A stretch of DNA of 56,769 nt, from assembly GCA_017882905.1 (NCBI GenBank), contig JADGOO010000196.1, positions 1 through 56,769 of the forward strand, in the 5' to 3' direction. Both the position numbers and the translations under genes were made by a program. This stretch comes from Acidimicrobiia bacterium (GTDB lineage Bacteria; Actinomycetota; Acidimicrobiia; IMCC26256; PALSA-610). The notes under the pieces are model-generated. The model worked only from the letters and a program-made list of their open reading frames with translations. It did not search any database and had not been told where the DNA came from. Positions within the stretch are counted from its first letter, which is position 1. Each line of letters starts with the position of its first letter. This document shows, piece by piece, positions 4,893 through 40,900 of this stretch.

Positions 4893-6935
4893 TCAGCGCG
4901 TATTGCCCGTGTGCCCGATCGAGTAGCGACCGGGCTGCGGCCACACGCACAGGCCGTGCGGACCGGAACCGACACGGATGCGCGCGATCAGATGGCCATC
5001 GACGGTGGAGAGTGCGTACACCTCACCGTTGTAGCGACCGCTCAGCCACAGCACCTTGCCGTCGGCCGACACGCCACCCATGTCGGGGCTTCCGCCAGGG
5101 ATCGACCAACGAGCGACGATCTGTTGCGTGGCGAAGTCGATCACGCTGATCGAACCGTCGCCGCGATTCGTGACGTAGAGCAACCGCGCATCGCGACTCG
5201 GGTACAAGCCGTGCGCGCCGTTGCCCGTGGGCATGAGACGCTCGACGGTGAACGTGCTCGCGTTGACGAGCCACACGCCGTTCGAGTTCATGTCGGCGAC
5301 GTAGAACGTTCGTCCATCGGGCGACAGCTTCACGTCTTGGGGACGACTGCCCGCGTGCAGCGTCAGCACGCTCACGACCGAGCGGTGCACGATGTCGAGC
5401 ACGAGCATCTGGCCTGAGAACTCGCAGCTCGCCAGCGCGTGGGTTCCGTCGGCGGTGAAGTCCAGGTGGTCGACACCACTGCACGGCGCAGTGACCGACT
5501 GCTGGAGCGCCATCGTGTGCGGATCACGAAAATCGAGCCGGTGCAGACGCTCGGCGACCACGATCGCCGAGTGCCCATCGGGCGTGAAGTAGAGGTTGTA
5601 CGGGTCATCGACCGGGATGTCGGGGCCCGACCGGCGACCGGTGCGCGGATCGATCGGCGTGAGCGAGTTACCCCGATCGTTGTCGACGTAGAGCGTCCGC
5701 ATGTCCCAGGAGGGCGTGACGTGCTGGGGCAGGGTTCCGACCGCGAAGTGGTCGATGACTCGCATCGTGGTGGGGTCGATCACATCCACCGTGTTCGACA
5801 TGCTGTTCGGCACGTAGACGAGCGATCGCTCCCCGCGCACTGCCGCGCTCATGTCGCCGACGCCAGTGTGCGAGTACACGTTGCCGTCGAACGAAGCCGG
5901 CGTTGCCGTAGGGACGACTTCGATTGCACCGACGATGCCCGTACGCCCCGACGCGGCTCGGCCGCCGATCGCGATCACGCGAGATCCGTCGGTCGCCAAC
6001 GAGAGATCGCTGCGCGCCACGGAGAGCTGCCCAACGGCGCGCAACGTGTTCGTCTTCGTGTCGAGTGCGAGGATCGAGCTCGACAGCGCCGAGGACGATG
6101 TGCCGTGGCCACCGGCCAGGATCATGTGCCCGTCGAGGTTCGCGGCCGCCGCGTGCGAGATCGGCGAAGGCAGCTGGGCGACGCGCGTGACGCGGCCGGT
6201 GGTCACATCGACGCGCAGTACGTCGCTCGAAGCATCGGCCGATTGCGTGGAGCCGCCGAAGACGTACACCGCCGTGCCGTCGCTCGCGACGGCGGCGTAG
6301 CGGAGCGGTTGGGGCAGGTGCGCCACGACACGGGGTGCGCTGCCCGGGCGGTACGCGACAACGGTGTCGAGCCACTTCTGCCCGTCGTAACCACCGACGA
6401 CGTAGGCCGTGTCACCGACCGTTGTTGCGGCGCTGTCGCTCGAGGCCGCCGGGAGCGTCGACACCCTCGTGGCGTTCCCGTTCGCATCGACACGCCAGAT
6501 CGCGTCGAGCTGATTGGTGCCGTCGCCACCGCCGAACACGTACAACGCGCCACCGATGGAGGCCGCCGCCGCGTCATGCTGGCGGACCGGGAACGCTGTG
6601 ACGTTGTGGATCGCCGAGCCGGAGACGATGAACGCACGGTTCGTCGACCCCGACGCGTCGATCCCGGCGAGCGCGAGCACGCCACCCGTGACCGGACCCG
6701 ACGAGACGTCTTCCACCGGATGACTGAGCTCTGCGATCTGCACCTCGTGCAGAGCGAGCACCGCCGGGACCGTCGTCTTGGGCGCTGCCGCGGTGGTCTG
6801 GCTCGGCGCACGCGTCGTGCTCGATGTGCGATTGACAGCGGGCTTCGACGATGAACAAGCACCGAGCGTCAGCGCGAACGCTGCGCCTGCAGCGCCGAGC
6901 ACGCAGACGGGAGACCGCCGTCTCCGCTGCGCCAT
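4893..6935 (-). CDS. Lipoprotein with kelch and YVTN beta-propeller repeats
   Basis: From ATG 6935 the product is 680 residues: a basic N-terminus, a hydrophobic signal and the lipobox 'LTLGAC' (lipidated Cys27), then a Ser/Thr/Ala/Pro-rich linker. Residues about 60-340 contain kelch-like units ('GGALYVFGGGDG', 'DTAYVVGGYDG', 'TAVYVFGGS'). Residues about 350-680 contain YVTN-type units ('LVYVPNSMSNTVDVID', 'RLLYVTNRGDGSISVID'). It is therefore probably an extracytoplasmic lipoprotein with two beta-propellers, a scaffold for binding proteins or glycans rather than an obvious enzyme. An upstream in-frame start at 7115 would bury the signal peptide and was rejected. It is divergent from the GT87 gene. 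Confidence 0.85.
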   Translation of the reverse strand: MAQRRRRSPVCVLGAAGAAFALTLGACSSSKPAVNRTSSTTRAPSQTTAAAPKTTVPAVLALHEVQIAELSHPVEDVSSGPVTGGVLALAGIDASGSTNRAFIVSGSAIHNVTAFPVRQHDAAAASIGGALYVFGGGDGTNQLDAIWRVDANGNATRVSTLPAASSDSAATTVGDTAYVVGGYDGQKWLDTVVAYRPGSAPRVVAHLPQPLRYAAVASDGTAVYVFGGSTQSADASSDVLRVDVTTGRVTRVAQLPSPISHAAAANLDGHMILAGGHGTSSSALSSSILALDTKTNTLRAVGQLSVARSDLSLATDGSRVIAIGGRAASGRTGIVGAIEVVPTATPASFDGNVYSHTGVGDMSAAVRGERSLVYVPNSMSNTVDVIDPTTMRVIDHFAVGTLPQHVTPSWDMRTLYVDNDRGNSLTPIDPRTGRRSGPDIPVDDPYNLYFTPDGHSAIVVAERLHRLDFRDPHTMALQQSVTAPCSGVDHLDFTADGTHALASCEFSGQMLVLDIVHRSVVSVLTLHAGSRPQDVKLSPDGRTFYVADMNSNGVWLVNASTFTVERLMPTGNGAHGLYPSRDARLLYVTNRGDGSISVIDFATQQIVARWSIPGGSPDMGGVSADGKVLWLSGRYNGEVYALSTVDGHLIARIRVGSGPHGLCVWPQPGRYSIGHTGNTR

Positions 6936-8551: not shown

Positions 8552-9664
8552 CATCGACGTGCCGTCGTCCGCCACGTCGATCGCGAGGCCTTCGCCCAGC
8601 TCACGCACCGTCACTCGCACCTGACCCGTGCCATGCTCAACGGCGTTGTCGAGCAACACCGTGAGGATCTGGCGAACCGCCGCCGTCGACGCGTGCACTT
8701 CCGGGAGATGCGGCGCAACGGACACGGCGAGGTCTCGACCAGCCGCGACCAGCCGCCGGCGCTCGCGCGCGTCGAGCTCGTCGACGAGGCTCTGCACAGC
8801 GAGCGGACCGCGCTCGGTGTGCGTGTCACGAGCCAACGCGAGCAGCTCTTCCACCGTGTGGTCGAGACGATCGGCTTGCGCCAACGCCTCGCGCAGCACC
8901 GACTCGTCGAGCCGGTGCGTGAGCTCGGCCGATTCGAGCGTGACCTTCAGCGCGGTGATCGGCGTGCGCAGCTGGTGCGACACATCCGCGCTGAACGCCC
9001 GCTCGCGTTGCAACGCCGCACCGAGCCGTTCGGCCGTGGTGGCCAGCGCGGCCGCGACCGTGTCGATCTCCGCAACGCCACACGGAGGCTCGTGCGCCGT
9101 GAAGTCACCATCTCCGATCACGCGAGCTGTTGCGGCCAACCGTCGCAACGGAGCGCTGAGCCGGCCGGCCAGCAACCATGCGATCAATGCCGCGAGCCCG
9201 ATGGCGGCGAGCGCGAGCAACGCGATGAACAACCAGGCGCGCCGCACCCGACGGAACACCTCCGTCTGGCTCGAACCGGCCCGCACCGAGCCGATGATCT
9301 GCTCGTTCGCGTCGACCGGCACGGCCACGGCCAGGTGCGCGCCGCGAACCTCGGCAACCTTGCCGGTGCGCACCGAGATGAGCGGACGCTCGAGCTGCAC
9401 CGGCCCGTCGCCCGCGACCCGTCGACCCTGCGGGTCGTAGACGGCGAGGTGGATATCACGGCCGGCCGAGTGCAACACGATGTCGGCGCCGTCGCGCAGC
9501 GACGTGGTGGAGACGTCACGCTCGGCTCGGGTTGCCGCCCGTTCCAGCTCGCCGAGCTCGTTGGTGACGGCCGTGCCGCGCACGACGACAGCGAGCGGGA
9601 TCGCGAACGTCATCACGGCGACAAAGGCGACGACCAACGTGGTCGTCAGCAGCCGTCGCCTCAC
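8387..9664 (-). CDS. Two-component sensor histidine kinase
   Basis: The 425-residue kinase has membrane segments at about 8-30 and 143-170 with an extracytoplasmic sensor loop between. A HAMP linker follows, then a HisKA box 'FSADVSHQLRTPITALK' with the phospho-accepting histidine. The ATPase domain shows an N-box 'LLDNAVEHG', a G1 'DVADDG' and a G2 'RGIGLALARSLAEAEGG'. The gene overlaps the response regulator by four bases (9661-9664), so the two are translationally coupled. Nothing in the sequence identifies the signal. Its 3' end overlaps the convergent glycosyltransferase frame by 165 bases. Confidence 0.93.
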   Translation of the reverse strand: MRRRLLTTTLVVAFVAVMTFAIPLAVVVRGTAVTNELGELERAATRAERDVSTTSLRDGADIVLHSAGRDIHLAVYDPQGRRVAGDGPVQLERPLISVRTGKVAEVRGAHLAVAVPVDANEQIIGSVRAGSSQTEVFRRVRRAWLFIALLALAAIGLAALIAWLLAGRLSAPLRRLAATARVIGDGDFTAHEPPCGVAEIDTVAAALATTAERLGAALQRERAFSADVSHQLRTPITALKVTLESAELTHRLDESVLREALAQADRLDHTVEELLALARDTHTERGPLAVQSLVDELDARERRRLVAAGRDLAVSVAPHLPEVHASTAAVRQILTVLLDNAVEHGTGQVRVTVRELGEGLAIDVADDGTSMSGDTQLVFARRSGDDPRRGIGLALARSLAEAEGGRLLLNATPTTVFSLVFAGHA

Positions 9665-29985: not shown

Positions 29986-30104
29986 AGCGCCCGTCGCTTC
30001 GTGGGTGAGCGGGTACGGAAGTGCGTGGCAGGCCGGCGCATCCGTATCCTCGCCGCCGACTCGACGTGGAGCCGCGGCGAGCCCCGATGCAACGAGAGGT
30101 GACG

Positions 30105-32033
30105 ATGCGCAACCGCCACGCCGGCGAGCCGTTCACGACGTCCGACGACGACATCGCCGCGGCGCTGCTCGACGTGAGCATCCCCACGCTCATGCTCTCG
30201 CTCGTGCACATCACGGGCGATCCGGAGCTGATCCGCGGGCGCCTCAAGCCCGCCGGGCTGTTCCTCAACGAGGTGCAGGGCTACATGAGCGAAGACGACA
30301 AGGCCGAGGTGCGCGCCCTCGCCCTCGACATCATCCGCGACTACCGCGACCGCGGCTGCCCGGAGCCCGCGCCGATCGCGCCACAGCTGCTCCACGAGAT
30401 GATGTCGTGGCTCGTCGTGGAAGACGTGCCCGACGAGTACGTGCCCATGCTGATGGAGGAGATGGAGCTCGACGGCGCCGACGCCCGCCAGGTGGCTGCG
30501 CCGGCCGACATCGCCGCCCGCGAAGCGTTCCCCGTCGTGGTGATCGGCTGCGGGCAGTCGGGCCTGCTCGCTGGCATCCGGTTGCAGGAAGCCGGCATCC
30601 CGTTCACCATCGTCGAGAAGAACTCGGGCGTCGGCGGCACGTGGTGGGAGAACTCGTACCCCGGTGCCCGCGTCGACGTCGGCAACCACTTCTACTGCTA
30701 CAGCTTCGAACCGAGCGACCACTGGACCGAGTTCTTCGCCCAGCAACCCGAGCTGCAGGCGTACTTCCAAGGCGTGATGGAGAAGTACGGCATCGACAAG
30801 CACATCCGCTGGGAGACCGAAGTCATCAGCACCCGATGGGACGACGCGTCGAGCACCTGGAAGGTGCAGGCGCGCGCCGCCGACGGCTCCGTCGAGACGC
30901 TCACCGCCCGAGCAGTCATCTCCGCCGTCGGGCAGCTGAACCGGCCGAACATCCCGGAGATCGCAGGCCAAGAAACGTTCGCGGGGCCGTCGTTCCACTC
31001 CGCTCGTTGGGATCACGACCTCGATCTCGCGGGCAAGCGCGTGGCGATGATCGGCGCCGGTGCGAGCGGCTTCCAGATCGCGCCCGCAATCGCCGGCGAA
31101 GTGCAGCAGCTCACCGTGTTCCAACGCACCGCGCAGTGGATGTTCCCGAACCCCAACTACCACGCAGCCGTCGGTCCGGGCGTGCGCTGGGCGCTCCGGC
31201 ACCTCCCCTTCTACGGACGCTGGTACCGCTTCCTCATCTTCTGGCCGGGTTGCGACAAGGGCTTGCAAGCGGCGCGGGTCGACCCCGATTACCCCGACCA
31301 GCAGCGCGCGGTCAGCGAGACGAACGAGCTGACGCGCCAGATGTTCACCGACTGGATCACGAGCCAGGTCGGCGACGATCCCGAGCTGATCGCGAAGGTC
31401 GTGCCCGACTATCCGGCAACTGGGAAGCGAACGCTGCAGGACAACGGCAGCTGGTTGCGCACGCTCACACGCGACAACGTGGAGCTCGTTCGCACCGGCA
31501 TCGATCACATCGAGCCCGATGCGATCGTGACGGTCGACGGCGAGCGCTACGAGTGCGATGTGATCGTGTACGCGACAGGCTTCCACGCGAACCGGGTGCT
31601 GTGGCCGATGGAGATCACCGGTCGTGACGGCACCGATCTGCGCACGCTGTGGGGTGAACGTCCGGCCGCGTACTTGGGGATCACGATTCCCGGCTTCCCG
31701 AACTTCTTCTGCATGTACGGACCAGGCACCAACCTCGCGCACGGCGGCAGCTTGATCTTCCACTCCGAATGCCAGATGCGCTACATCTCGCAATGTCTCG
31801 ACGCGCTCATCGATGGTGGCCATCGTTCGATGGAACCGCGCCAGGACAAGTACGAGGAATGGCACGCACGCTCACAAGCCGAGATCCGCAAGCTCGTGTG
31901 GAGCCAGCCTTCGGTGAAGCACTCGTTCTTCAAGAATGCGTACGGCGAGATCCACGTACTGAGCCCGTGGCGCATCGTCGACTACTGGACCTGGACGAAG
32001 ACCCCGGAGCCGACCGACTTCGTCTTCTCCTGA
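30105..32033 (+). CDS. Baeyer-Villiger monooxygenase (4-hydroxyacetophenone monooxygenase-like)
   Basis: The 642-residue flavoprotein starts at ATG 30105 with AGAGGTG upstream. A helical extension of about 140 residues precedes the FAD-binding 'VVVIGCGQSGLLAG'. The BVMO fingerprint appears as 'FAGPSFHSARWD' (FxGxxxHxxxW), then the NADPH-binding 'VAMIGAGASGFQIAP' and 'DVIVYATGFHANRVLWP'. Length and extension match HAPMO-type type I BVMOs, which insert oxygen next to a ketone carbonyl to give an ester using NADPH and O2. It leads the oxygenase cluster but is separated from the P450 genes by a gene on the other strand. The 669-residue antisense frame is a shadow. Confidence 0.93.
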   Translation: MRNRHAGEPFTTSDDDIAAALLDVSIPTLMLSLVHITGDPELIRGRLKPAGLFLNEVQGYMSEDDKAEVRALALDIIRDYRDRGCPEPAPIAPQLLHEMMSWLVVEDVPDEYVPMLMEEMELDGADARQVAAPADIAAREAFPVVVIGCGQSGLLAGIRLQEAGIPFTIVEKNSGVGGTWWENSYPGARVDVGNHFYCYSFEPSDHWTEFFAQQPELQAYFQGVMEKYGIDKHIRWETEVISTRWDDASSTWKVQARAADGSVETLTARAVISAVGQLNRPNIPEIAGQETFAGPSFHSARWDHDLDLAGKRVAMIGAGASGFQIAPAIAGEVQQLTVFQRTAQWMFPNPNYHAAVGPGVRWALRHLPFYGRWYRFLIFWPGCDKGLQAARVDPDYPDQQRAVSETNELTRQMFTDWITSQVGDDPELIAKVVPDYPATGKRTLQDNGSWLRTLTRDNVELVRTGIDHIEPDAIVTVDGERYECDVIVYATGFHANRVLWPMEITGRDGTDLRTLWGERPAAYLGITIPGFPNFFCMYGPGTNLAHGGSLIFHSECQMRYISQCLDALIDGGHRSMEPRQDKYEEWHARSQAEIRKLVWSQPSVKHSFFKNAYGEIHVLSPWRIVDYWTWTKTPEPTDFVFS

Positions 32034-32063: not shown

Positions 32064-33119
32064 TCAACCGCCCACAGCATCGGCGGCTGCGATCCGCGCC
32101 GCGAGCAGGTCGAGGATCGGGTTGTCCTCGATCGGGAACGGGCTCGCCAATCCTGCTCCGAGATGCAGGTAGCCGATCCGCGCCATGATCGCTGTACTGC
32201 GGGTCACTGCGAGGATCTCGTACCACTCGAGGTCGTGGAGTATCCGGCCGCTGAGCGCTTCGTACTGCGCGATCGTGCCGTCGCGGTCGGGAAAGCCGGC
32301 AAGCTGCCGACCGAGCATGGATCGCATCGTGGCTTCGAGCGTGATGAACCAGGCGACATCGTGTTCCGCTGCACCGATCGACGCCATGTCCCAGTCGAGC
32401 ACGGCGCGCGGCATCAGGTCGTCGCCGAAGATCGCGTTGCCGAAGCGAACATCGCCCCAGAGCAGCACGGGCTCCGATTCGGTGACCGGCTGGTGGGCCC
32501 GGCACCACTCGAGCGCGTCGACGAGCTCGCGAACCGGCGCGCCGCCGCTCGACCATTCGAGGTAGTCGGCCCAGAAGTCGAGCTCGGCTGCGTTGTCGCG
32601 CACAGGGACACCGGCCGCCGCGCTCAGATCGGCACGGTGCGTGGCCGCAATGGCGCCTATGAACGCCTCGTAGACCTGGCCGCGTTCGGCCTCGGTGAGT
32701 GAGTGCAACCACGGGTCGAGGGCCGCGACCTCGCCAAGCACGTGGCCGTGCACTCGCGGCATCACCATGAACGGAACGCCGAGCCACGAGACTTCGGAGA
32801 CCAGCTCCGGCATCGCGATCGCCACCCCAGCGGCCGCCGCCGCCATCTGCGCGATCGTCTGCTGCGCGAGGTCGTAGTCGCGAAATGTGCCCACGGTCGG
32901 CGGGGCGAGACGCACCACGAGCTCGTACTTCTGCTCGCCGCGCGCATCGCCATCGGTTCCCGACGCGGCGAGATCGACGAGAACCGTCTCGCTCGAATAT
33001 CCGATCGACGGATGCTCGGCGTGGACCACGCGCACGTTGTCGGAGCCGGTGCGCGCCGCGAACCAGGCTGCGAGCGCGCCGGCCACGACGAGCGGATCAC
33101 GATGTGTCAGGAGCGCCAT
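32064..33119 (-). CDS. Aminoglycoside phosphotransferase-fold (APH/ACAD10-like) kinase
   Basis: The 351-residue protein has the protein-kinase-like APH fold: 'KYELVVRLAPP' (lysine region), 'WLGVPFMVMPRVHGHVLGE', the catalytic-loop equivalent 'PVLLWGDVRFGNAIFG' (WGD instead of HGD) and the metal-binding 'AVLDWDMASIG'. Such proteins in actinobacteria sit among lipid and steroid catabolic genes, where ACAD10/11-like kinases phosphorylate hydroxy-acyl groups. They are not antibiotic resistance genes as such. It is divergent from the lipocalin-like gene across an operator-like site. Confidence 0.87.
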   Translation of the reverse strand: MALLTHRDPLVVAGALAAWFAARTGSDNVRVVHAEHPSIGYSSETVLVDLAASGTDGDARGEQKYELVVRLAPPTVGTFRDYDLAQQTIAQMAAAAAGVAIAMPELVSEVSWLGVPFMVMPRVHGHVLGEVAALDPWLHSLTEAERGQVYEAFIGAIAATHRADLSAAAGVPVRDNAAELDFWADYLEWSSGGAPVRELVDALEWCRAHQPVTESEPVLLWGDVRFGNAIFGDDLMPRAVLDWDMASIGAAEHDVAWFITLEATMRSMLGRQLAGFPDRDGTIAQYEALSGRILHDLEWYEILAVTRSTAIMARIGYLHLGAGLASPFPIEDNPILDLLAARIAAADAVGG

Positions 33120-33137: not shown

Positions 33138-33163
33138 TTTACACTCATGGCGCTACATGTAAA
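33138..33163. promoter_or_regulatory. TetR-type operator candidate, copy 1
   Basis: TTTACA (33138-33143) and TGTAAA (33158-33163) form an inverted repeat with 14 bases between. The site lies in the 71-base divergent gap of the APH-like and lipocalin-like genes. The pattern TTACAC-N13-TGTAAAG recurs at 37837-37861, beside the cluster's TetR gene. A TTTACA hexamer could also act as the -35 of the rightward promoter. Confidence 0.6.
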
Positions 33164-33190
33164 GTCCGCCGGCCGCCGGGCCAGCGCTTC

Positions 33191-34351
33191 ATGACCGAGC
33201 TCGGGCCCCTCGGGCCGCTCGACGAGCTGCTCGCCCACCAGATCGTCGATACCTTCGCGACCGTCTCCCAGTCGGATCGATCGTGGACCGAGAAGATCTG
33301 TGCGATGGCTGCGGCGAGCGACGGTTCGCTCGCACTCGGGTTCGGGCTCGGCAAGTACCCGAACCGCGGCGTGATGGACGCCTACGCCGGCGTGTCGCGC
33401 GGTACCGAGCAATGGACGGTGCGCGCGAGCCGCGAGCTCGGCGCCGACGGCGACACCACCGTGGTCGGTCCGATCCACTACGAGGTGCTCGAACCGATGC
33501 GGTGCATCCGCTTCGCACTCGATGCCAACGACGTGCAGCCCGTCTCATTCGAGTGGATCTTCGAGGGTGTGGTGCCGGCCGTGCTGGAGAACCACGAGGT
33601 GCACCGCGCCCGCGACGGCCGGCGCATCGACGCCGACATCGCGCGCTACCACCACATCGGCGCCGCGCACGGTTGGATGGATGTCGACGGCCACCGCACC
33701 GATTTCACCGACGAGCGCTGGGTCTCGACTCGCGACCACTCGTGGGGTGTCCGCTACCAGGTCGGTGTTCCGATCACCGACATCGCCCCCGCGCCGGTTC
33801 CGACGAACGTGGCTACGACGGTCATCTGGTCGCCGATCCTGATGACACGCGCCGATGGCACGCGCTACGGCCTGCACACCTATTACCAACGCCACGCGTT
33901 CGGCGACTGGCAGCGCATCGAGCTGCAAGGTGGCTTCGAGCATCCCGACGGCCGGCGCGAGCCATATGGCGCGCTCGTTCCCGAGCTCGAGGTCGACCCG
34001 GTCAACCGACGGTTGCGTGGCGGCGTGTTGCACGCCACCATGCACGACGGCACGGCTCGCGATCTCACGATCACCGCACTCTCCGCCACCGGATTCCACC
34101 TCGGCGCCGGCCTGTACTTCGGCTTCGACGGCCATTGGCACGGCGAGTGGCGCGGCCGGCAGCACGTCGATGGTGAGCACATCGCCGACTGCACCACGTT
34201 CGAGCAGGCGCGCCGCCTGCACCAGCTGCGCGATTGCATTGTGCGTGTCGACGACCCGGTCGGCGGTGGGGTCGGCGTCGGCAACCTGCAGAGCATCTTC
34301 GCAGGACCCCAACCCGACCTCGGCCTCGACGAGCAATCGTCGTTCATGTGA
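33191..34351 (+). CDS. Lipocalin-like (AttH/hydratase-type) protein of oxygenase cluster
   Basis: The 386-residue protein has two beta-rich halves. Notable stretches are 'FEWIFEGVVPAVLENHEVHR', 'GAAHGWMDVDGHRTDFTDER', 'WVSTRDHSWGVRYQVG' and a repeat-like second half. The 'RDHSWGVR' motif occurs in AttH/tocopherol-cyclase-like double lipocalins and in uncharacterised actinobacterial proteins next to P450 and acyl-CoA genes. It has no signal peptide. A role in binding or transforming the hydrophobic substrate of the pathway is plausible but unproven. It is the first gene of a tight three-gene run (23- and 2-base gaps) with the P450 and the acyl-CoA ligase. Confidence 0.72.
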   Translation: MTELGPLGPLDELLAHQIVDTFATVSQSDRSWTEKICAMAAASDGSLALGFGLGKYPNRGVMDAYAGVSRGTEQWTVRASRELGADGDTTVVGPIHYEVLEPMRCIRFALDANDVQPVSFEWIFEGVVPAVLENHEVHRARDGRRIDADIARYHHIGAAHGWMDVDGHRTDFTDERWVSTRDHSWGVRYQVGVPITDIAPAPVPTNVATTVIWSPILMTRADGTRYGLHTYYQRHAFGDWQRIELQGGFEHPDGRREPYGALVPELEVDPVNRRLRGGVLHATMHDGTARDLTITALSATGFHLGAGLYFGFDGHWHGEWRGRQHVDGEHIADCTTFEQARRLHQLRDCIVRVDDPVGGGVGVGNLQSIFAGPQPDLGLDEQSSFM

Positions 34352-34374
34352 ACGGCGCGATGAACGAGGAGCCC

Positions 34375-35559
34375 ATGTCCGACCTTCCCGCCGACCCCAC
34401 GGTTCCCGGCTACTACCTGCGCGCCGACTACTACGAGCTGCTGGCCGACCTGCGGCGCGACGCGCCGATCCACGAGTTCGCACCCGGCATGCGGACAGTC
34501 GCACGCTACGACGACATCCGCAAGATCAGTCGCGATCCGGCGCGGTTCTGCTCGTCGATGGGTGCGCTCGTCAACGACCCGATGCGCACCTGGGAACGGC
34601 CCACCAAGGCACCGTCGATCCTGCACATGGATCCGCCCGATCACGTGGGCTTCCGCAAGCTCGTGAACCGCGAGTTCACGCCGCGCGCGATTGCCGATCT
34701 CGAACCGCGCATTCGCGAGCTCGCACGCGCCGCGCTCGACCGGACGCCCGACACGGGCGTGTTCGACTTCGTCGACCTGGTTGCCGCGCCGTTCCCGCTG
34801 ATGGTCATCGCGGAGCTGCTCGGCATCCCCGACGGTGACCGACCCGACTTCCGGCGCTGGTCCGACGCGACCATCGAGGCCACCGACAAGCCGCCCGAGG
34901 AGACTGCGGCCGCAACGGGCGAGCTCTTCAGGTACCTCATCGAGCACATCGCCGCCAAGACAGCCGACCCCGGCGACGACGTGGTGTCGATCCTCGTGGC
35001 CGCCGAGGTCGACGGCCGTTCCCTCGACCGCGACGAGCTGCTGATCTTCTTGCTCGCGCTGCTCGTGGCCGGCAACGAGACGACGCGCACACTCATCTCC
35101 GGCGGCGCGCTCACACTGTTCGAGCATCCCGATCAGCGCGCCGAGCTCGTCGCCGATCCGACGCTCATCCCGGCCGCCGTCGAGGAGTGCCTCCGCTGGG
35201 TCACGCCCATCCAGGCGTTCGCCCGCACGGTCACCGCCGACACGGTCGTCGGTGGTGTCGAGGTCAAAGCGCTCGACTATCTCGTGATGCTCTACGCGTC
35301 GGGCAATCGAGACGAGGCGGCGTTCGGGCCCACGGCCAACGTGTTCGACATCCGGCGCGACACGAACCCCCCGCATCTTGCGTTCGGCTTCGGCGAGCAC
35401 CTGTGTCTGGGCGCCGCGCTCGCGCGCATGGAGGCTCGCATCCTGTTCGAGGAGATGCTCGCGCGTCACCCGGGCTATGTCGTCGACGGTGAACCGCAGT
35501 GGGTGGCGTCGAGCCTCGTACGCGGGATGCACTCGATGCCGGTCGCCTGGGCCCCGTAG
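34375..35559 (+). CDS. Cytochrome P450
   Basis: The 394-residue soluble bacterial P450 starts at ATG 34375 after GAGGAG. It has the I-helix oxygen-activation motif 'LLVAGNETTRTLISGG', the ExxR motif in 'AVEECLRWVTPIQAFAR', and the heme-binding loop 'LAFGFGEHLCLGAALAR' with the thiolate ligand near Cys344. It resembles CYP families that hydroxylate steroids, terpenes or fatty acids (CYP125/142/123-like in general form). No ferredoxin gene is adjacent, so electrons must come from elsewhere. It lies between the lipocalin-like and ligase genes in one transcript. Confidence 0.94.
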   Translation: MSDLPADPTVPGYYLRADYYELLADLRRDAPIHEFAPGMRTVARYDDIRKISRDPARFCSSMGALVNDPMRTWERPTKAPSILHMDPPDHVGFRKLVNREFTPRAIADLEPRIRELARAALDRTPDTGVFDFVDLVAAPFPLMVIAELLGIPDGDRPDFRRWSDATIEATDKPPEETAAATGELFRYLIEHIAAKTADPGDDVVSILVAAEVDGRSLDRDELLIFLLALLVAGNETTRTLISGGALTLFEHPDQRAELVADPTLIPAAVEECLRWVTPIQAFARTVTADTVVGGVEVKALDYLVMLYASGNRDEAAFGPTANVFDIRRDTNPPHLAFGFGEHLCLGAALARMEARILFEEMLARHPGYVVDGEPQWVASSLVRGMHSMPVAWAP

Positions 35560-35561
35560 TC

Positions 35562-37223
35562 GTGAGCGCGCCCAGCACCTTCGCCGAGCTCGTGCTCAGC
35601 CGAGCCGACGACGACACCACCGGGCTGCTGTACGAAGACGAACGATGGTCGTGGCGCGAGGTGGTCGCCGAAGCGCGTGTACGCGCCGAGCTGCTCGTGC
35701 GGGCGCGCCGTCCCGGCCCGTTCCATGTGGGCGTGCTGCTCGAGAACGTGCCGGAGTTCATGTTCGTGTTCATGGGCGCCGGCCTCGTCGGCGCCGCGGT
35801 CGTTGGCATCAACCCGACGCGCCGCGGCGCCGAGCTCGCCCGCGACATCAACCACACCGATTGCCAGCTGATCGTGACCGACGGCTCGATGCGGCCGCTG
35901 CTCGACGGCATCGCGCTCGATGTCACGCCCGACCGCATCCTCGACATCGACGGACAGGAGTACCGCAGGGCACTCGACGTCGCAGCCGAGTCGGCCGGCG
36001 GCGACAGCATTGTCGCCCTCACCTCACCAGATCCCGACACGCTGCTCGCACTGCTGTTCACATCGGGTTCCACGGGTGCACCGAAGGCCGTGCGAATGAC
36101 GCAGGGCCGCGCCGCACGCGTGGTTGCCAACGCGCTGTTCTCGCCCGACGACGTGCTGTATTGCGCGATGCCCCTCTACCACGGCAACGCGCTCAACGCG
36201 AACCTCTTCCCGGCGCTGCGCTCCGGCGCAACGATCGCGCTGCGCCGCAAGTTCTCGGCCTCGGGGTTCCTGCCCGACGCGCGGCGCTACGGCGTCACGT
36301 TCTTCAACACCGTCGGTCGAGCGTTGAACCACATCCTGTCCACGCCCCCGACCGACGACGACCGCAATCACTCGATCAAGTACGTGCTCGGTCCCGAGTC
36401 GGCACCGGCCGACGTGCGTGCGTTCCGCAAGCGCTTCGGCCCACCCGTGATCGAGGGCTACGGCTCGAGCGAGAACGCGATCATCCTCGTACCGGACCCG
36501 GCGCTGCCGAAGGGCTCGCTCGGCCGCCCGCTCGAGGGCATCGACGTGGTGATCCTCGATCCGATGACGGCCGTGGAGAAGGCCCGAGCGCGATTCGACG
36601 AGCACGGCCGGTTGCTCAACGCCGGCGAGGCGATCGGCGAGCTCGTGAGCCGCAACGCAACGGCGCGCTTCGAGGGCTACTACAACAATCCCGAAGCCGA
36701 CGCGGAGCGCACCCGCAACGGCTGGTACTGGTCGGGCGATCTCGGCTATTGCGACGAAGCCGGCGTGTTCTGGTTCGCGGGGCGCAACGCCGACTGGCTC
36801 CGGGTCGACGGCGAGAACTTCGCCGCGGCACCGATCGAGCGCATTCTGGCGCGGTTCCCCGGCGCCGATGGCGTGGCCGTGTATGCCGTGCCCGACAGCC
36901 GGACGGGTGATCAGGTGATGGGCGCGATCGAGATGCTCGCCGGTACCGCGTTCGATCCCGATGCCTTTGCCACCTTCCTCGACGAGCAGCGTGATCTCGG
37001 CACCAAGTGGGCGCCGCGATATGTGCGCGTCATCGAATCGCTGCCGGTGGGAGCCACGAACAAGATCGACAAGCGGCCGCTTCGGGCGCAGCGGTGGGAC
37101 ACCTCGGATCCGGTCTACTGGCGCGCGCCGCGCGCCGCCGCGTACGTGCGCTTCACGGTCGCCGACGCGCAGGCGCTGCGCGCCGAGTTCGACCACAACG
37201 GCCGCGCCAACTTGCTCGTCTGA
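35562..37223 (+). CDS. Acyl-CoA synthetase (FadD/AMP-binding family)
   Basis: The 553-residue adenylate-forming enzyme starts at GTG 35562, two bases after the P450 stop. It contains the P-loop 'LLFTSGSTGAPKAVRMTQG', 'VIEGYGSSENAI', 'GWYWSGDLGYCDEAGVFWFAGRN' (in two motifs, YWSGDLG and AGRN), and the C-terminal 'NKIDKRPLRAQRW' with the catalytic lysine. It resembles FadD17/FadD-type ligases that activate long-chain or cyclic carboxylic acids with CoA. In context it would prime the acid produced by the BVMO/P450 steps for beta-oxidation (inference). The nearby TetR gene is convergent. Confidence 0.92.
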   Translation: MSAPSTFAELVLSRADDDTTGLLYEDERWSWREVVAEARVRAELLVRARRPGPFHVGVLLENVPEFMFVFMGAGLVGAAVVGINPTRRGAELARDINHTDCQLIVTDGSMRPLLDGIALDVTPDRILDIDGQEYRRALDVAAESAGGDSIVALTSPDPDTLLALLFTSGSTGAPKAVRMTQGRAARVVANALFSPDDVLYCAMPLYHGNALNANLFPALRSGATIALRRKFSASGFLPDARRYGVTFFNTVGRALNHILSTPPTDDDRNHSIKYVLGPESAPADVRAFRKRFGPPVIEGYGSSENAIILVPDPALPKGSLGRPLEGIDVVILDPMTAVEKARARFDEHGRLLNAGEAIGELVSRNATARFEGYYNNPEADAERTRNGWYWSGDLGYCDEAGVFWFAGRNADWLRVDGENFAAAPIERILARFPGADGVAVYAVPDSRTGDQVMGAIEMLAGTAFDPDAFATFLDEQRDLGTKWAPRYVRVIESLPVGATNKIDKRPLRAQRWDTSDPVYWRAPRAAAYVRFTVADAQALRAEFDHNGRANLLV

Positions 37224-37250
37224 CCGGGATGGCGGCGCGGCCGGCCGGCG

Positions 37251-37826
37251 TCAACCCGTGGCCCGCATCGTCGAGCGGCGCGGCAATCCGGCGAAGCTGC
37301 GCAGGTTGGCGAGCAGCACGTCGGGATCGGGATGGGGCACGAGGTAGTGCGAGTACGCCACCCGCAAGCAGAGCTCGGCCGCCTGCTCGCTCGACAGGTG
37401 ACCGCTGCGCACCGCCGGTACCTGTTGCAGCGCGTCGCCGAGCAGGCGCGCCAGCGCGTCGATCTGGATCGGGAGCGCGCGGGCGAGCGACTGCAGCGCG
37501 AACTGCGGGTCGGCACCGATCGGATCCGGACCCATCAGACCATCGAGGTAGTTCACGAGATACCGAAGCGCGGCATCGAGCCTCCGGGCCGGGCTTCGAT
37601 GCCCCTCGATCACCGCGCGCAGGCCGCGATCGAACTGCTCTTGCTCATAGCCCGCGATGGCAGCCAGGAGATCTGCCTTCGTGGGGAACCACCGGTAGAG
37701 CGTTGGACGAGAAACTCCCGCCGCGACGGCGATCGCCGACAGCGTCAGCTTGCCCGGCCCACGCTCGCTGATCGCTTGCCTGGTTGCGGCAAGGATCGCT
37801 TCCCGACTCGTCGAGCTGCCCTGCAC
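37251..37826 (-). CDS. TetR-family regulator of the oxygenase cluster
   Basis: The 191-residue protein has an N-terminal HTH ('REAILAATRQAISERG', 'LSAIAVAAGVSRPTLYRWFP') and a helical ligand-binding domain with 'LDAALRYLVNYLDGLMG'. Its promoter region holds TTACA-N14-TGTAA, which matches the site upstream of the lipocalin-P450-FadD transcript, suggesting that it autoregulates and controls that cluster. It is convergent with the ligase gene 27 bases away and divergent from the BTAD regulator. Confidence 0.9.
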   Translation of the reverse strand: MQGSSTSREAILAATRQAISERGPGKLTLSAIAVAAGVSRPTLYRWFPTKADLLAAIAGYEQEQFDRGLRAVIEGHRSPARRLDAALRYLVNYLDGLMGPDPIGADPQFALQSLARALPIQIDALARLLGDALQQVPAVRSGHLSSEQAAELCLRVAYSHYLVPHPDPDVLLANLRSFAGLPRRSTMRATG

Positions 37827-37836
37827 GCCTCGACCA

Positions 37837-37861
37837 TTACACGTGCCCTGTGGGTTGTAAA
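37837..37861. promoter_or_regulatory. TetR-type operator candidate, copy 2
   Basis: TTACA (37837-37841) and TGTAA (37856-37860) are separated by 14 bases, and the following bases give TGTAAAG as in copy 1 at 33138. The site begins ten bases upstream of the tetR start codon and could also influence the divergent BTAD gene. Confidence 0.6.
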
Positions 37862-37921: not shown

Positions 37922-40900
37922 ATGCCCGCCGTGAGCACGCCGCGCGAGTCGATCACGAGCGTGCGGATCTTGGGCGGAGTGCACGCGGTCGCGGCCGATG
38001 GCTCACTCGTCGATCTGCCGAGCGCGAGCCAGCGCCGCCTGCTCGCAATCCTGGCGCTGCACGCGCCTCGCCGGTTGCGTTCCGAGTGGCTCGCTGACAC
38101 ATTGGAGATCTCTCCGGGGGCACTGCGCACATCGGTGTCGCGCGTGCGCGCCACGCTCGGTGCCGCGATGCTCGAGACGGCAAGCACCGGTTACGCGCTC
38201 GTCGGCGAGGTCGACGCCACTCGGTTCTGCGACGCCGTCGCCGCGGCCGCCGGCGCCGGCGACCGAGTGCGCGCCCTGCAGCTGGCGCTCGGTCTCTGGA
38301 ACGGCGCGCCCCTCGACGAGTTCTGCGGCGAGCGGTGGGCCGACGGCGACAGCGCGCGCCTCACCGAGATCCACGCGGGCACGGTCGACGATCTTGCCGA
38401 GGCGCTGGTCGACGCCCGTCAGGCGGCCGACGCAGTTGCGCAGCTCGAGAGCCAGATCGCCCGCTACCCGTATCGCGACCGCTCTCGAGGGCTCTTGATA
38501 CGGGCACTGTCGAGCTCCGGGCGCCAAGCCGACGCACTGCGCGCGTTCCAGCAGTACCGGGCAGTCCTCATCGAGGAGTTCGGCACCGATCCGTCGCCCG
38601 ACGTCGTGCGCATCGAACGGCGAATCGCAACCGGCTGGGATGGCGTCGCGGCGGCACCGGTCGCTCGCGCCGTGACCGGCGCGGCGGCGACTCGGCCCGC
38701 CTTCGACATCCCGCTTCCGTCTTCGCTCATGCACCAAGAAGGGTTCGTGGGTCGCCACGAGGCCATGAAGACGCTCGCAAACGAGCTCGACCGAGCCTCG
38801 GAGTCGGGCTTGCGATGCGTGTTGATCGGAGGCGAGGCCGGCATTGGCAAGACTGCGCTGTTGGCCGCGTTCGCCGCGGAGCTCATGTCGTCGGCCACGG
38901 CCACGGTGGCCTACGGGCGTTGCGACGAGACCGGCGCTGCGCTTCAGCCGTTCCGGACCGTCCTCGCCGCATGCGTCGAGCACGCACCGACCGACATGCT
39001 GACCGAACACGTCGCGCGGCACGGCGGCGAGCTCGGCCGCATCTGTCCGTCGCTCGCCTTGCGAGTGACGACCACACCATCGGCGACCGCTTCCGACGAC
39101 GCGACCGAGCGGTACCTCGCGTTCGAAGCAGCTTCCGACCTGCTCCGCCGAATCGCATCGCCACGGCCTTTGGTGGTGATGCTCGACGATCTGCAGTGGG
39201 CCGAACCGACGGCACTCCTGTTGCTCCGCCACCTTGCCCACGCACTCGCCGATGCGCCGGTGCTGCTCGTGCTGAGTCGACGCGACGCCGGCGAGGCGGA
39301 ATCAGAAGCGCTGCGACTCGCATTGGCCGACGTCGCCCGCACTGACGCGCGCCGTCTCGACCTGCTCGGACTCGAAGATCACGAGCTCGGCGACCTGGTC
39401 TCAGTCAGTGTGCGCGGCGCTCACGGACGCGCCGAGGCTGTCGTCGCCGCGCTGCACACGCAGACGGCAGGAAATCCGCTCTACGCCTCGCAGCTGATCC
39501 GCCACTGGTCCGAGACGAGCTTCGACCCAACGGTCGTTCCACCGAGTCTGCGCGACGTCGTGTGGAGCCGCATCAACGCCATCGGCGACGACGCGACCGA
39601 CGTCCTCATGGCGGCGTCGGTCCTCGGCGTGGATTTCGACGAAGCCGTGCTGCTCGACATGCTCGATCTCCCGGAATCGACCGTGATCGACACGCTCGAC
39701 GCGGCCGAGCGCAACGGGCTCCTGATCGACGCAGGGTCGGTTCGCAGATCGCTGCGCTTCGTCCACGCGCTCATCGCAAGTGCGCTGTACACCGAGCTCG
39801 GAAGCTCTCGACGAGCCCGGCTCCACGGGCTCGCGGCCCATGCGCTCGAGAACGGCGTCGACGAGCTGCCGCCAAGCATCGTGGTCCAGCTCGCGCGCCA
39901 CTGCGCGCTCGCCGGCCGGCCGGCCGAGGCTCTGAGCTGGTCCACCCGCGCCGGCGATCACGCGCTCGACCATCTCGCGCCCACCGAAGCCGCGCAGCAC
40001 TATCGGGTGGCGCTCGACCTCGCGATCGCGCTCGACCGACCCGACGCCGTGCAGGCTGATCTACTCGTGCGCCTCGGGGACGCGCAGCACCGCTGCGGCG
40101 ACAGCGAGGTGCACGCCACGCTCGCCGAGGGCGCGCGCCTCGCGCAACGCAGCGGGGCGCACGACGCACTCGTGCGGGCGGTGTTCGCGGCCGACCGCGG
40201 CTTCATGCGCGTCGACAACAGTGCGCCGGAGTACTTGGCGACCATCGAAGCGGCGATCGCGGTCACTGAACGCACCGACGTGCCCACGTACGCGCGCCTG
40301 CGCGCACTGCTTGCGCGCAGCCTCGTGTTCACGCCCGACGCGGCGCGGCGGCTCGCCGCCGCGCACGAGGCACTCGATCTCGCGACCGAGCACGGCGACC
40401 CCACGCTGCTCGCGCAGGTTGCGCCGGCAGTGCTGTATGCGCTGTGGGGTCCTGGGCGCCGTGCGCTGCGATCACGCGTGGCCGCGGCCGCGACTCACGC
40501 CGCCGAGAGCACGGGCGACCCGAGGCTCCAGTTCGGCGCGCACCTCGCGGCCTACAACGCGGCAGTGGAATCGGCCGACCACGTGGTCGCGGCGCGCAGC
40601 CAGGCCCGGATGCGAGCGATCGCTCAGGCCATCGGCGAACCTCACCTGCGGTGGACGATCGGCCTGCACGACACGTTCGACACCATGATGGCCGGCCGGC
40701 TCGACGAGGCAGAAGCCATCGCCACGGCAACCCTCGACCTCGGCATGCAGATCGGGGAGCGCGACGCGTTCACCTTCTTCGCGGGGGAGCTCTTCGTGAT
40801 CGGCACGTTCGCCGGGCGCCACGAAGAGCTGCTGCCTCTCGTGGAACAAGCCGCGCGCGAAAGCCCGAGCGTCATCCCGTTCACCCTCGGCTATGCGATC

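Follow-up and report, generated by a model that had tools for sequence, protein, structure and literature searches.

A probable conserved operator of a TetR subfamily at both ends of a P450, kinase and Rv3169-family gene cluster in an Acidimicrobiia bacterium

The stretch of DNA analysed here (hereafter the window) comprises 56,769 nt of contig JADGOO010000196.1 of assembly GCA_017882905.1, from an Acidimicrobiia bacterium. It holds a cluster (Table 1) in which three close-packed genes, for an Rv3169-family protein, a cytochrome P450 and an acyl-CoA ligase, form an operon, with the ligase starting 2 bases past the stop of the P450. A gene for an APH-family kinase diverges from the first of these, the two starts lying 72 bases apart, and beyond the ligase a TetR-family gene diverges from one for a SARP/AfsR-type regulator that was absent from the first-pass annotation. 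A pattern scan of the window found TTACA-N14-TGTAA in two places only, one in each of these divergent gaps: site 1 reads TTACACTCATGGCGCTACATGTAA and site 2 reads TTACACGTGCCCTGTGGGTTGTAA. The arms TTACAC and TGTAAAG are identical between them and the 13-base spacer matches at one position only, so that the pair of TTACAC-N13-TGTAAAG sites first described here, with like arms and unlike spacers, is exact in the window. Site 1 ends 28 bases before the ATG of the operon (33191), which corrects an earlier figure of 71 bp, and starts 19 bases before the ATG of the divergent APH gene (33119); a possible promoter toward the operon, TTTACA (33138)-N16-TAAAGT, overlaps it. Site 2 lies upstream of both its neighbours, 10 bases from the GTG of the TetR gene (37826) and 61 bases from the ATG of the SARP-type gene (37922). 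The palindrome is present, then, in the TetR gene's own promoter as well as in the promoter of neighbouring genes.

Table 1. Genes and operator sites of the cluster, with positions in the window
Feature	Position	Strand	Evidence or setting
APH-family kinase, candidate tertiary-alcohol (25-hydroxysteroid-type) kinase	32064..33119	-	Pfam APH 79 bits
Operator 1	33139..33162		between APH and Rv3169-family gene; matrix score 24.1, best in window
Rv3169-family protein, 25-phosphosteroid-lyase-like, first operon gene	33191..34351	+	NF053593 349.6 bits
Cytochrome P450, CYP125-like, second operon gene	34345..35559 (reading frame; likely ATG ~34361)	+	Pfam p450
Acyl-CoA ligase, nearest CasI steroid-22-oyl-CoA synthetase / FadD17, third operon gene	35562..37223	+	NF052587 649.9 bits
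TetR-family regulator, 191 aa, probable repressor at both operators	37251..37826	-	Pfam TetR_N E=3.8e-15
Operator 2	37837..37860		between TetR and SARP-type gene; matrix score 19.1, second in window
SARP/AfsR-type regulator (BTAD + AAA), 1159 aa	37922..41401	+	divergent from TetR across operator 2

The predicted structure of the TetR-family protein is an ordinary TetR fold with an all-helical ligand domain, and against NCBIfam the protein reached no equivalog cut-off. The TetR-family proteins KstR and KstR2 repress steroid catabolism in actinobacteria; the former matches the protein of the window distantly, and an identity with it was rejected on a score of 26.9 bits against the NF033703 cut-off of 280 bits.

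The enzymes encoded beside it have recognisable relatives. The first operon gene had been labelled a lipocalin, a label that gives way to membership of the Rv3169 family, in which it scores more than twice the cut-off of 150 bits (Table 1); a profile of that family matches the 25-phosphosteroid lyase 9fzn at E=4.9e-78 over profile positions 4-364, near full length. A Foldseek search with the predicted structure likewise returned 9g2i and 9fzn (25-phosphosteroid lyase) as best matches at E of about 2e-18, on a model of modest confidence (pLDDT 65), the sequence match being independent of that model, and a mycobacterial member of the family encoded beside an APH gene matches the same lyase at E=2.4e-73. 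The APH-family kinase carries the catalytic motifs WGDxRxGN and DWDMA; its nearest solved structures are 9fsg, an APH-like protein (E=1.8e-31), and then Rv3168 (3ats, E=1.2e-23), the former being by inference from its size and neighbouring accession numbers the 25-hydroxysteroid kinase. As the Rv3169-family protein is related to 25-phosphosteroid lyase and stands alongside an APH kinase, the two may form a kinase-lyase pair that dehydrates tertiary alcohols. The P450 is closest among solved structures to CYP125MRCA (8vxi, E=2.7e-91), which we take to be a reconstructed ancestral CYP125. For the ligase, CasI is the nearest model and not a family to which it belongs, its score falling below the equivalog cut-off of 900 bits for NF052587. 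Taken together, the enzymes point to a pathway acting on the side chain of a steroid or of a similar isoprenoid. Three more relatives of the Rv3169 family, two of them above the family cut-off, are encoded elsewhere in the same genome (contigs C12, C97 and C213; loci L137, L138 and L140), and none of the three lies at an operator site.

It is the nature of the substrate that leaves most room for a different reading: the TetR may be the correct regulator of an operon that acts on a terpenoid, a branched lipid or a secondary metabolite rather than on steroids, which we consider not far short of an even chance. The steroid ring-hydroxylase domain KshA_C was not found in the genome by a domain search that had no strong positive control, so that complete sterol degradation is doubtful; the ligase lies under the CasI cut-off, the 25-hydroxysteroid kinase is promiscuous (PMC8449060), and a SARP-type regulator adjoins the cluster. 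Against this, the nearest named match is a steroid side-chain enzyme for the lyase, the P450 and the ligase, and a plausible one for the kinase.

The Baeyer-Villiger-type gene at 30021-32033, annotated as BVMO and at first counted within the regulon, was rejected as a member: it is convergent with the APH gene, the two ending head-on, no site with up to 3 mismatches was found upstream of it, and no homologue appeared in the related clusters tested.

Evidence for the regulator comes from comparison with other genomes. Six orthologs of the TetR, with identities of 71, 69, 55, 45, 40 and 39-40%, were examined within the same family and order, and a 14-spaced site was found in the loci of five of them (four exact, one with a single mismatch), where it stands at the promoter of the TetR, P450 or APH gene. 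A wider set of 80 loci, mostly from Mycobacteriaceae, was obtained by scanning genome contigs for the recognition-helix pattern; the DNA sites played no part in this choice, and the constancy of the recognition helix within the set is partly a matter of selection, since the pattern picked the loci. Exact arms occurred at a spacer of 14 only (36 of 36 in the 80-locus set and 5 of 5 in the Acidimicrobiia loci), and relaxed arms (TKACA/TGTMA) gave 167 sites at that spacer in the Mycobacteriaceae set, none of the other spacers from 0 to 30 giving more than two. Of 77 related loci, 55 have a site in the 1.5 kb that precedes the TetR gene, whereas spacers of 8-13 and 16-20 gave none there and a spacer of 15 gave one. 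By comparison, 25 loci from the same genome family whose TetR genes are of other kinds had no site at spacer 14. Within the locus stretches examined, no relaxed-arm site was found in five related loci (L040, L042, L058, L095 and L114). A matrix built from the sites of relatives, with the window left out, placed the two sites first and second in the window (Table 1); the third-best score was -1.7, and the top score across 30 simulated windows was 12.1. Because both conservation and matrix follow the relatives of the TetR, the sites are attributed to it and not to a neighbouring gene. On this comparative evidence, TTACA-N14-TGTAA is very probably a conserved operator of this TetR subfamily from Acidimicrobiia to Mycobacteriaceae. 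The initial claims that the two sites are operators of one regulator, that this regulator is the TetR at 37251 and that the divergent APH gene shares the control all gain support in the same way, from a site that accompanies the subfamily in genus after genus while its 14-base spacer stays invariant.

The logo of the relatives' sites widens the half-site to about GCKTKACAMTT, and beside a TetR ortholog in a different family of the class (L133, position 2067) the operator lies within a 16-base perfect inverted repeat, CCATACCTTTACATTC-N8-GAATGTAAAGGTATGG. The arrangement around the site varies. The genome with the 55% ortholog (G001, locus L035) has the same gene set together (TetR, P450, ligase, APH and Rv3169-family gene), with imperfect 13-spaced sites at 9423 and 10030, before the TetR gene and before a P450-led operon; their right arms are weakened, and they are possibly a variant of the operator. 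Elsewhere, a TetR and an Rv3169-family gene diverge from an APH gene across one site with 1 mismatch (L037); a site precedes an APH-TetR pair and a divergent CoA-transferase gene (L055); and in some loci of Mycolicibacterium (L080, L083 and L086) a distant lyase-kinase operon is preceded, at about 30 bases, by a site. Sites in mycobacterial genomes bunch in stretches of about 20 kb, with five to six TKACA-N14-TGTAA sites in each of two examples (G066 contig C23, 112288-132886, with six; G063 contig C1, 1198332-1219339), and P450, thioesterase, aldehyde dehydrogenase and CoA-transferase genes were seen in the related mycobacterial loci sampled. This clustering and gene content suggest a larger catabolic regulon in those organisms. 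Four mycobacterial loci (L052, L053, L065 and L087) have sites near 5867 and 5928, 60-61 bases apart, between divergent P450 and TetR genes, and a Frankia locus (L041) has two, at 5895 and 5955.

Two other accounts of the sites themselves can be set against these data. The first, that they are operators of another regulator such as the SARP-type protein at 37922, takes its appeal from the location of operator 2 in the TetR-SARP gap and seems very unlikely to us: the site is kept beside TetR orthologs in many genomes, when seven related loci were tested the SARP gene gave only weak matches (27-28%), in two of them, and the operators here are dyads, whereas SARP binding sites are usually direct repeats. 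The second, with marginally less to recommend it again, holds that the arms are the -35 and -10 elements of a promoter class (TTTACA-N16-TAAAGT) and no operator at all. Site 1 can indeed be read in this way in the direction of the operon, and a flanking AAAGCT is conserved in the logo, yet an overlap of operator and promoter is what is expected of a repressor, and the motif is a dyad with a fixed 14-base spacing. Its asymmetric form, moreover, faces the gene in L047 and faces away in L080, L083 and L086; it goes with a single TetR subfamily, loci with other TetRs lacking it; and a promoter class would not be expected just twice per genome.

The whole 4.36 Mb genome contains exactly these two sites, to which allowing up to 1 mismatch adds none, so that the pattern is not the common one that would have told against an operator in the original proposal. 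From the composition of the window, 0.0026 sites are expected in the window and 0.2 in the genome, an expectation that gives P=3e-6 for two or more in the window, and 100 shuffles of the window yielded none with the pattern. The notion that the sites are two AT-rich palindromes that arose by chance in GC-rich DNA is refuted by this rarity, by their uniqueness in the genome and by their conservation across genera. A candidate set of weaker sites in the window, with up to 3 mismatches, was rejected as being at chance level (22 found, 19.7 expected).

A search of the literature for the letters of the operator returned nothing relevant, and the nearest published system is that of Rv3167c, Rv3168 and Rv3169. 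In Mycobacterium tuberculosis, Rv3167c is a TetR-family autorepressor that controls Rv3168-Rv3169 via a palindrome in the divergent promoter, as established by EMSA and ITC, and both genes are strongly up in an Rv3167c deletion mutant (PMC5340868). The likeness is plain: a homologous pair of APH kinase and Rv3169-family protein under a TetR, with a palindrome in a divergent promoter. Mycobacterial loci of the Rv3167c type (L120-L125), however, carry a TetR at best weakly similar to that of the window and no TTACA-N14-TGTAA, and orthology with Rv3167c was rejected on account of this other TetR and of another dyad; the system of the window is therefore an analogue in its regulator and a homologue in two of its targets. 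In their APH-TetR gaps, L120-L124 share a candidate Rv3167c site, a conserved dyad read by eye as about ATWACGMTAC-N5-GTAKCGTWAT. The short stretches of L120-L125 that were examined yielded no homologue of either the P450 or the ligase.

Mce3R (9b7y) is the best PDB sequence match to the profile of the window's TetR (E=7e-17), over the DNA-binding regions only. Mce3R of M. tuberculosis reads 25-bp sites in pairs and has a lipid- and sterol-linked regulon; it has two TetR units in a single polypeptide, and its sites are asymmetric and reported as non-palindromic (PMC11667970). In this fusion and asymmetry it is unlike the TetR described here; the site pairs 60-61 bases apart noted above recall its paired sites. 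For the enzymes, the relevant precedent is a tertiary 25-alcohol that is phosphorylated and then loses its phosphate to give a C24 alkene (PMC8449060, PMC11061730), and the homologous lyase and APH-like kinase of the window suggest the same two-step ATP-dependent dehydration as in Sterolibacterium denitrificans. There, hydroxylation is molybdenum-dependent and anaerobic, and no candidate lyase gene lies near the kinase gene (PMC8449060), whereas in the window a P450 is part of the operon and the kinase and lyase genes share one operator.

On the basis of the two sites, of their being unique in the genome and of the link between them and the TetR subfamily, we infer a scheme of binding, repression, inducer, substrate and reaction order, which as a whole we hold with good confidence: a TetR that sits on both sites, represses the cluster and is released by a ligand, with enzymes that act together on a side chain. 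The TetR (37251-37826) would bind TTACA-N14-TGTAA at both ends of the cluster, as a dimer or a pair of dimers; the arm centres are 19 bases apart, which is long for one TetR dimer, so that the protein may bind as two dimers or as one wide dimer. At 37837-37860 it would repress the gene that encodes it; the divergent SARP-type gene is a possible further target by virtue of position only. At 33139-33162 it would cover the promoter region between the APH gene and the Rv3169-P450-ligase operon and repress both: bound to a 24-base dyad lying over the two divergent promoters, the protein would shut them off together. The TetR most likely represses itself, the operon and the APH gene. The TetR would be freed by its inducer, a small molecule that is probably a steroid or isoprenoid in hydroxylated or CoA-activated form, whereupon the P450 would hydroxylate a branched side chain, the APH kinase would phosphorylate the alcohol, the Rv3169-family lyase would eliminate the phosphate to leave an alkene, and the ligase would convert an acid to its CoA ester. 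A more general and tentative proposal, to which we give slightly less than even credence, is that in aerobes the ATP-dependent dehydration of tertiary alcohols is under the control of this actinobacterial TetR subfamily, which reads TTACA-N14-TGTAA, and is carried out by an APH-type kinase and an Rv3169-type lyase that share one divergent operator.

The operator is well supported and the biochemical role is a proposal; between them, they provide an operator code for a TetR subfamily that extends from Acidimicrobiia to Mycobacteriaceae, together with a hypothesis on the function of the Rv3169 family and its APH partner, both of them groups of proteins that are poorly understood. If the hypothesis is true, then by the same reasoning the Rv3168-Rv3169 pair of M. 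tuberculosis, which the virulence-linked repressor Rv3167c targets directly, would act as kinase and lyase in this manner, and because a repressor linked to exit from the host cell controls this homologous pair, a biochemical role for Rv3168 and Rv3169 becomes testable.
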